64,000 nucleotides of DNA, taken from Sipunculus nudus (lineage: Eukaryota > Annelida > Sipuncula > Golfingiida > Sipunculidae). The notes below the pieces were generated by a model that saw only the letters and a list, made by a program, of their open reading frames with translations, had not been told where the DNA came from and made no database searches. A program made the translations under genes and the position numbers. The DNA is taken from contig CM049317.1 of assembly GCA_026874595.1 (NCBI GenBank), forward strand, positions 58,952,118-59,016,117, given 5' to 3'. Positions 38,320 through 64,000 of this stretch are shown piece after piece. Numbering within the stretch: the stretch's first letter is position 1; each line of letters begins with the position of its first letter.

Positions 38320-38613
38320 AGGCAAAAATAAAATAATAATAAAAGGTATGGTTCTCAGGCACCGCTCGGATCAATTTTAACCCCCGCTTTAAAAAAAAAT
38401 ATTTTGATTTTCATCTTTCAAGAAGATAACATAATACAATTTTTCCTTTGTTATGTAGTGCTTTTACCTATTTTGAAAAAAATGATGTTATTATTTTGCT
38501 TTTCCCTGATTAATGACATTTTTTATCGAAACATACAAAAAAGGGAATAAAAAACCCCGCCCACATTGATTTCTGAAAAAAAAGTGCCTGAGAACCATAC
38601 CTTTTTTTGGCCT
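38320..38613. mobile_element. MITE M, copy 1
   Basis: Inner inverted repeat GGTATGGTTCTCAGGCAC is perfect (18/18); the ends extend outward as AGGC(C)AAAA and TTTTGGCCT flanked by TA. It interrupts the TTTTCTAT..TTTTTCTATTTTGG tail of an A repeat. Sister copies at 57691-57986 and 63546-63878. Confidence 0.85.
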
Positions 38614-57690: not shown

Positions 57691-57986
57691 GACAAAAAAT
57701 AATAAAAGGTATGGTTCTCAGGCATCGCCCGCGTTAATTGTACTCCCCCTCCCGCATTAAACAATTTATTTTGATTTTCATCTTTCAAGAAGATAAAATG
57801 ATACAATTTTGATCAGATTTCCTTTGTTATGTGCTTTTGCGTGTATAACAAAACAATTCTGTTATTTTCAAACTTTCCCTGATCATGTGAAATTTTTATC
57901 GAAAAGAAACAAAACAAAGGTAAAACATCGCCCGGCCTCACAGGTTTCTGATATGAAGTGTCTGAGAACCATAGCCTTTTTCGGCC
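57691..57986. mobile_element. MITE M, copy 2
   Basis: Ends GGTATGGTTCTCAGGCAT and GTGTCTGAGAACCATAGCC, more diverged than copies 1 and 3, with the same interior landmarks (TTTTGATTTTCATCTTTCAA, GATACAATTTTGATCAG). Flanked by TA. In ACE-like intron 1. Confidence 0.8.
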
Positions 57987-61863: not shown

Positions 61864-62007
61864 GTTTGACTGACGTGTTTGAGAGATCACGTGATTGGAC
61901 CGACTTGGTGTGGGCGTGGCGGGGATGGCGTGATGCAACGGGCAGAAAAATGACCAACCAGTTCGAGAAGATGGTGGAACTGAAAAATGAAATAGCTAGA
62001 AAGCACG
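61864..62007 (+). CDS. ACE-like M2 peptidase, exon 4
   Basis: 144 nt between TTGTTTCTAG and GTATGA, phase 1-1. Reads LTDVFERSRDWTDLVWAWRG then WRDATGRKMTNQFEKMVELK. The WAWRGWRDATGR segment is a hallmark of the family ('(F/W)AWEGW(R/H)xxxG'), and 'L-(T)-(D/N)-x-x-x-x-S-R' before it is also conserved. Confidence 0.93.
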
Positions 62008-62127
62008 GTATGAAGCTCCATGAGATTCTTTTTAAAGGCATTTGCTCTCTATAATTGTTATAATTACGGAACACATAAGACTGTAGTCTCGTGATGTAAT
62101 TTTTGTCACTGAACCAATTAAATAATG

Positions 62128-62168
<41 letters not shown>

Positions 62169-63545
62169 TCTATATAAATTAACCTATAATAATTGTAATT
62201 ATTATTAAAGTTATTAGTAGTAGTAGTGGTAGTAGTAGTTGTCTGTAATTTTAGGTTAATTTCTATGGTTTATGAATATATGTATATATTTCCTATACAT
62301 TTAGCTGGAGTATAAGAAAGAATGCGTGCTCTCGTGTACATATAAATCCCAAATCTATACACTCACACACAGACAGATACACAATATGAAAGTGAGAACA
62401 GTCTAACATTAGCCGGCTTATGGTCTACCGCTCATACCGCAGGAAAATAAAAAATATACCTTGATGTCACCCAGACCATTTATCAGCATAAGGTCTGGAT
62501 GTGTCATCACTCAGTTGGCCCGGAAGTGGAGGCCCTGCTGGGCTTCAGCTTATCACGTTTTGGGAAGAAACAATGCGGAGATGACGCTGAGTCAAGGATA
62601 TATGTCTTTGTTGACCCAGTTCGTGTGTAAACAATGACTGTACCAGTTGTAGTAGGTCTCCATTCTTGTGGTTAGTTTCAGGTCACGATAGTAACACAGA
62701 CCAAGTTAAAACAATCATGAATACAAGATGAGGTGTATGTCCCAACTGATCATCTAACTGTAAACCTATTCATTCCCTTGTGAATTTTAGAAAACAGTAA
62801 TATCAGTGTATATGTGTTTGTACTTTACAGATTTATCTTCAAAATTACCTTTGTATAAATATCTATTAGAACGAGTTTTTTTTTCTCATTTTTCACGATT
62901 CTTACGTTAAAATATATCTTTCCAACCACACTTGCGACATCTGCCGGTGATAATTGACTGTTGGGGTTCTTTATTTCGACAAAATATTGTATTTAATTAT
63001 ATCTCAGATGATTTTTAATGACAAACATGCCTTGATTATCTTTAATTGGGAGGTTCCTTCAAGAGCTTCTGGTTTATGTTTGGTTTTAATTGACAAATCT
63101 GTGATGCTGGCCAATTGGACCTTGATACTTGAGACGACCAATATGGATAGTGTCCATGAATCCCCTGAGTTTTTTTTTTATTCCGAGGATAATATAGACC
63201 ATAACCAAAGAGTTATGAAGCCTCCCTTCCTTCCCCTTAAACTAACTCTTTAACAAGCATTTGTATTTCATTTTTATTTTTTTTTTATTTTTTGTAGCAA
63301 TGTTTACCATTTTGGGTTATAAGATGTAAGCTTAAATTATCTATGAAGCGCTTTTCGTGGCGTGGCGTCAAAGAACAAAGTGTCGTTATAACACATATTT
63401 ACCGTGTGGTGTAAGGCAGCTAAAGGTCAGTCTGCATACAGCATTATAATGAAGTTTAGTTTTTGTTTATATATAATCCATGGCAGGGGCGCTATAACAC
63501 GCTTAGAGGGTGGTTCAGGACGTCTCATGCAAGTTTATGATTTTA
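62008..63545. other. ACE-like intron 4, left part
   Basis: Contains (ATA)n at about 62126-62168 and (AGT)n at about 62213-62241, otherwise AT-rich without recognisable features. The 99-codon frame at 62954-63253 has no recognised similarity. Confidence 0.6.
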
Positions 63546-63878
63546 GGCCAAAAAAATTAAAGGTATGGTTCTCAGGCACCGCCCGCATCAATTTTAAACC
63601 CCCGCATCAAAACTTTTTATTTTGATTTTCAATAAAAATTTTCCAATTTTGAGCTGCTGCCGCTCCGACATTTCTTTCAAGAAGATAAAGCCATACAATT
63701 TGCTTTCTTGTAAGGCTTTTGCTTATTTAGCAAATTAAACTGTTATTTTCATGCTTTTCCCTTATCATTTGACTTTGATATCGTAACATTCCAAAAATTT
63801 AAAATTAAAAAAGCGCCCGCCCGCATTGATTTCTGAAAAAAAGTGCCTGAGAACCATACCTTTTTTTTATTTTGGCCT
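63546..63878. mobile_element. MITE M, copy 3, abutting an ACE exon
   Basis: Perfect 18-bp inner inverted repeats GGTATGGTTCTCAGGCAC (63562-63579 and 63843-63860), extended outward by GGCCAAAA / TTTTGGCCT, flanked by TA (63544-63545 and 63879-63880). The right-hand TA is the TA of the TAG 3' splice site of the next exon, and the T-rich outer TIR (63860-63875) now forms its pyrimidine tract. Confidence 0.88.
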
Positions 63879-63881
63879 TAG

Positions 63882-64000
63882 GTTACCGGAATAAGGCCGA
63901 TTCTGTGAATCAGAAATACGAGGTGACGGACCTCAGGGGAATTTGCGAAAGCCTTTACCAACAACTTAAACCACTGTACCAAAATCTACATGCCTATGTC
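63882..64000 (+). CDS. ACE-like M2 peptidase, exon 5 (runs off the window)
   Basis: From GGCCTTAG, phase 1, open to the window edge (40 codons). GYRNKADSVNQKYEVTDLRG then CESLYQQLKPLYQNLHAYV. The last part is the strongly conserved 'LxPLYxNLHA(Y/F)V' helix of ACE. The zinc motif HExxH and most of the catalytic domain lie beyond 64000, so activity cannot be judged. The 238 residues seen here fit the N-terminal third of a roughly 600-residue M2 domain. Confidence 0.92.

Follow-up and report, generated by a model that had tools for sequence, protein, structure and literature searches.

The nearest precedent found for the arrangement described here is the canine merle allele, in which a SINE occupies the acceptor between intron 10 and exon 11 of PMEL (PMC7349775). 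According to the accessible text of that source, the SINE lies in reverse orientation within the original 3' splice site, the exon-side copy of its 15-bp TSD holds the original acceptor, and its poly(T) brings in a T-rich tract together with a cryptic acceptor while the branch point becomes more distant; the insertion is known to change both splicing and the pattern of the coat. The MITE discussed below, which precedes exon 5 of an ACE gene of Sipunculus nudus, appears to share this placement, the retention of the acceptor in the TSD, the imported T-rich tract and acceptor, and the displaced branch point. Unlike the merle SINE, it is a DNA transposon with a 3-bp TSD, its TIR takes the place of the tract, and the gene is apparently intact. 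Introners that are DNA-transposon-like also resemble the ACE case, as their splice sites are formed partly by the element end and partly by the TSD, but in the part of the literature available on them they create a new intron, whereas ACE intron 4 appears to be old, with only its 3' end remade (PMC9860276). The MITEs of mulberry likewise lie at or near splice sites, and alternative 5' and 3' sites are given as the predominant MITE-related splicing modes; the cases recounted in the accessible text are exonisations in which parts of the MITE are kept in the mRNA, whereas no MITE base is expected there for ACE (PMC6593561). For clam haemoglobin, MITE-like elements are reported in introns and promoters, and the accessible text tells of no insertion at an acceptor (PMC4732748).

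The open-access literature, as far as its accessible text goes, yielded no case of an acceptor remodelled in this way by a DNA transposon, which is not proof of absence. The transposons Ac/Ds and Tc1 are spliced out of mRNA through sites at or near the ends of the element. As with the ACE MITE, the ends of a DNA transposon thereby join in splicing, but Ac/Ds and Tc1 are exonic insertions that are excised in the manner of introns. The kind of event is already known from other mobile elements; in the present case it involves a DNA transposon with a 3-bp TSD, and a gene that looks intact. In our reading of the locus, a MITE took the TTA within an acceptor as its target, the acceptor was duplicated in the process, and the downstream AG is now used for exon 5. 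We assign this account as a whole a probability of roughly 0.7.

The ACE gene around intron 4

The window, that is, the whole stretch of 64,000 nt that was analysed, is part of contig C12. The features that frame the insertion are as follows (a slash marks an exon boundary).

61864-62007, plus strand: ACE exon 4, with donor GTATGA, ending in phase 1 (CAC G/)
62008-63881, plus strand: intron 4, 1874 nt including the MITE
63882-64079, of which 63882-64000 within the window, plus strand: ACE exon 5, 198 nt long, starting and ending in phase 1

Homology assigns the gene to peptidase M2 (ACE). When exon 5 is taken from 63882, exons 4-13 form one intact frame of 485 aa, the longest of 72 open donor combinations, which scores 701 bits against Peptidase_M2 (PF01401, cut-off 23) over positions 130-581 of 581 and contains HEMGH, a HEXXH zinc motif, and a hydrophobic tail. 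None of the ten 3' exons is disrupted in this model, and the best gene model predicts an mRNA free of MITE sequence. Toward the 5' end, a probable exon 2 at ~59354 reaches 19.6 bits, below the Peptidase_M2 cut-off of 23, and exon 1 was not found. The preliminary description had placed the resumption of the coding frame and of ACE homology at 63882, which agrees with the Pfam match of exon 5 from this position (Peptidase_M2, E 4e-19). The exon starts with GT TAC, and its junction with exon 4 reads H-G-Y in phase 1. Exon 5 is likely spliced in from 63882.

The genome holds 76 ACE-family matches on C6, C9, C12 and C17, those outside this gene lying on C6, C9, C17 and elsewhere on C12. Among eight exon-5 matches, the exon studied here ranks seventh with 65.3 bits, the others scoring 81.2 to 69.7 and one 52.9. 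Its first residues (YRNKADSVNQKY, ~63884-63919) differ from the YWRSWY-like pattern that several paralogues have directly after the acceptor. Past the window, at G000:C12:59043271-59052243, two further ACE-family matches (profile positions 536-576 and 528-581) are both flagged for stop codons. When neutral decay was simulated (divergence of 3 to 4.8%, 0.1 to 0.3 indels for each substitution), the exon 5 frame stayed open in 4 to 41% of runs, so that the open frame by itself is weak proof that the exon is used.

A PIF/Harbinger-like MITE in front of exon 5

The element and the related features in the window are the following, with the TSD copies as identified by flank comparison of copies.

63543-63545: left copy of the TSD, TTA
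63546-63877, plus strand: MITE M copy 3, 332 bp, with GGCC...GGCC ends, PIF/Harbinger-like
63546-63580, plus strand: left TIR of MITE M copy 3, outer part A-rich
63843-63877, plus strand: right TIR of MITE M copy 3, its outer T-run being the putative pyrimidine tract of the new acceptor
63878-63880: right copy of the TSD, TTA, which forms the TTA of the acceptor TTAG
38331-38608 and 57695-57981: diverged MITE copies with decayed ends

A search of the 1.43-Gb genome with 63540-63890 as query gave 2725 first-look candidates, and the 40 that were scored bring the number of near-full-length matches, with the window copy counted, to at least 41 at 93-100% identity. The presence of a MITE at 63546-63877 is therefore not due to chance. 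A perfect 3-bp TSD flanks 20 of 22 copies (TTA in 15, TAA in 5) and is lacking in the other two; this count covers 21 copies at 20 loci plus the window copy, leaving out the two diverged copies in the window. The T-rich end is present in all 22, with a single base changed in one. Two details of the preliminary description had to be revised. It had given TA as the target-site duplication, which is only the inner part of TTA, and it had called the TIRs perfect, whereas 27 of 30 positions are complementary without gaps and 91.7% over a 36-column gapped match.

A TSD of the form TWA is a mark of PIF/Harbinger elements, whose TIRs, according to the accessible text, usually start with A or G and are mostly shorter than 60 bp (PMC4482050). 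The present element has a TWA TSD, a GGCC start and a TIR of ~35 bp; it is short (332 bp, compared to 336-338 bp in the 21 others measured), occurs in many copies and is non-coding, with stop-to-stop frames wholly within 63546-63877 of at most 46 aa. We accordingly call it PIF/Harbinger-like, after its TSD and TIR. A Tc1/mariner identity, with TA as the whole TSD, was rejected, as the third base is duplicated in 20 of the 22 copies and five of these have TAA.

Compared to the majority sequence of the 21 others, the window MITE differs at 16 of 332 bases and in four indel stretches, some of which are shared variants or reflect alignment at the tips. Ten positions are private to it (three of them deleted bases), every one within element positions 146-249. 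The 21 other copies have 60 private positions between them, split 22/24/14 over positions 1-145, 146-252 and 253-337. Constraint on the new acceptor was considered, since the right end is free of private changes, but the left 145 nt are equally so, and selection on the right end is thus not claimed. Conversion by other copies is one possibility for the clustering. A query with the middle of the element revealed no closer subfamily among the 40 scored of 278 candidates, the best other match having 90% identity. Three copies in differing orientations, each with its own TSD, lie within ~1.6 kb on C10 (L018, G000:C10:52806800-52808200, and L016). In the stretch from 57695-57981 on to ~58138, the tail of MITE copy 2 contains an ATG with which a frame starts, MKCLRTIAFFGLLITISCNPVD, upstream of the ACE exons and on the same strand. 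It looks like a signal peptide, possibly by chance; a MITE-derived exon 1 is conceivable.

Two acceptors at the 3' end of intron 4

The signals at the end of the intron are listed below; branch points are candidates named from their motifs.

63541-63546, plus strand: surviving upstream acceptor TTTTAG, use of which yields H-G-Q-K-N and then a stop
63829 (TTGAT) and 63836 (CTGAA), plus strand: further candidate branch points
63850, plus strand: candidate branch-point A of a CTGAG motif that precedes the AG by 32 nt
63880-63881, plus strand: AG of the acceptor now expected in use, from matrix score and gene model

The position and phase of intron 4 are common to all six paralogous exon-5 loci compared (L034, L036, L038, L039, L040 and L041; a seventh match, on C6, is omitted from this count). 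As the AG lies at the same place in all six, the end of the intron is older than the MITE. Comparison of the loci thus supports what the preliminary description had put forward, namely that the MITE inserted into a pre-existing acceptor that was kept by the TSD. It also led us to reject an introner identity, given the common intron position and the share of the MITE in intron 4, 332 of 1874 nt. Removal by eye of the MITE and one TTA leaves GATTTTAG/GTTACCGG, a normal acceptor. Within the assembly, the flank 63290-63545 has no match besides its own locus (one candidate, one match), and no insert-free haplotype or paralogue was found there.

On the upstream side of the MITE, TTTTAG/G is intact at 63541-63547. 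The GG at the start of the element rebuilds this site, so that the acceptor is duplicated and not merely displaced. The two acceptors end at 63546 and 63881, 335 nt apart, which equals the 332-bp element plus the 3-bp TSD. The location of the MITE directly before the exon 5 acceptor and the 335-bp upstream shift of the original signals stand as described earlier, but the loss of the old acceptor that this implied does not.

The strength of both sites was assessed with a weight matrix built from 34 ACE-family acceptors of the same genome, 25 paralogous and 9 of this gene, with exon starts set by hand from homology and with both tested sites and the near-duplicate locus L047 left out. With a score of 8.05, the MITE acceptor exceeds 31 of the 34 leave-one-out values and ranks first among 94 AGs of intron 4, scored from beyond the first 60 nt of the intron. 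The old acceptor scores 1.34, above 9 of 34; it is weak, yet inside the range of real ACE-family acceptors. The window and its extension contain 4898 plus-strand AGs, of which 0.1% reach the score of the new site and 6.5% that of the old. Pyrimidines occupy 14 of the 17 positions from -20 to -4 at the new acceptor and 9 of 17 at the old one (7 to 14 in the reference acceptors). These values support the view, already taken in the preliminary description, that the T-rich right TIR supplies the acceptor context, and it is the strongest in intron 4. Between the candidate branch point at 63850 and the new AG there is no AG other than one overlapping CTGAG.

Proposed mechanism and alternative explanations

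We infer the order of events, the branch point and the use of the downstream AG as follows. A PIF/Harbinger-like MITE would have entered the TTA of GATTTTAG/GTTACC, the acceptor with which ACE intron 4 already ended, and the 3-bp TSD together with the GG tip of the element would have produced two TTAG/G sites, 335 nt apart. The downstream AG would draw on the T-rich right TIR for its tract and probably on a branch point inside the MITE. It would be chosen for exon 5 because of its stronger pyrimidine tract and the shortness of the 198-nt exon, while use of the upstream AG would add 335 nt and an early stop to the mRNA.

The competing upstream AG, the TIR hairpin and in-frame skipping of exon 5 are points absent from the preliminary description. 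The RNA of the MITE is predicted to form a stem of ~35 pairs from the TIRs and TSDs, with both AGs at its foot and the T-run paired; its MFE is -88.6 kcal/mol, compared to a shuffle mean of -61.1 (z -5.4, with 0 of 100 shuffles as stable). Such a stem could hide the pyrimidine tract and the AG and thus hinder the new acceptor. By analogy with yeast introns, for which the accessible text describes stems that bring a distant branch point near (PMC12350175), it could instead draw a distant branch point close. In that event the MITE would be looped out through the hairpin and the original branch point, upstream of 63541, would reach the downstream AG, so that the TIR would not be the working tract. 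The extent and stability of the predicted stem speak for this explanation, but the same fold pairs the AG and its flanks, which should hinder recognition, and no animal intron is known to rely on a TIR stem in this way. We regard it as unlikely.

It is also possible, and we judge it quite improbable, that the insertion damaged the acceptor, with exon 5 often skipped, or the upstream AG used and the mRNA lost, and with the allele weak and perhaps not fixed. Skipping would be frame-silent, because the exon has 198 nt and equal phases (phase 1) on both sides; the frame stays open with 66 residues fewer. The intact upstream AG, the TIR hairpin and the low rank of exon 5 among its paralogous matches all fit such damage, and with the many ACE-family matches in the genome a weak allele could be borne. 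Against this, the ten 3' exons are intact in the model and exon 5 retains a 65-bit match to the family. That the T-rich tract is ancestral intron sequence without any transposon is highly improbable: the intron is indeed T-rich in places (63260-63300), but the near-full-length matches, the T-rich end in every copy compared and the TWA TSDs all point to a mobile element.

Possible recurrence at other exons

A broader reading, which we consider doubtful, is that the MITE family is pre-adapted to harmless landing at acceptors and that an intron can carry the element at its end with hardly any visible effect. The target TWA would sit within the acceptor, the GG tip would rebuild the old one, and the TIR hairpin would fold the insert away. 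Both TIRs read outwards as pyrimidine tracts, and a branch-point-like CTGAG is present in either orientation. When TTAG or TAAG plus a G comes after them, the consensus ends of the MITE reach scores of 5.0 to 8.1 (1.7 to 7.2 with other following bases); a copy landing at TWA/G would thus bring a fair acceptor in either orientation. If the family were so pre-adapted, acceptor-tolerant insertions would recur in the same genome.

The right end of the MITE followed by TWAGG occurs at 575 + 586 sites with at most two mismatches, whereas the reversed control gave 0. Exact sites number 39, the window included, and inexact ones 1122; the downstream DNA of the 39 was translated. Frames at 7 of the 38 other exact sites were submitted to Pfam, and the other 31 sites were judged by length and look only. 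The seven are not simply the longest, as L096 (63 aa) and L089 (56 aa) were omitted as low-complexity-looking. None of the seven reached a Pfam cut-off, compared to 4e-19 for the window exon as control; the frame of L064 (83 aa, without Pfam match) exceeds that of the window (73 aa). Recurrent use by the MITE family was not seen in this partial test of the 39 exact sites.

Implications

On the account preferred here, in which the duplicated downstream acceptor serves exon 5, a transposon can strike an intron at a highly sensitive point without disrupting the gene, as the TSD would save the signal and the end of the element would give the rest. The locus would also serve as a natural test of acceptor choice by the splicing machinery, with two similar TTAG/G sites separated by 335 nt and linked through a predicted hairpin.
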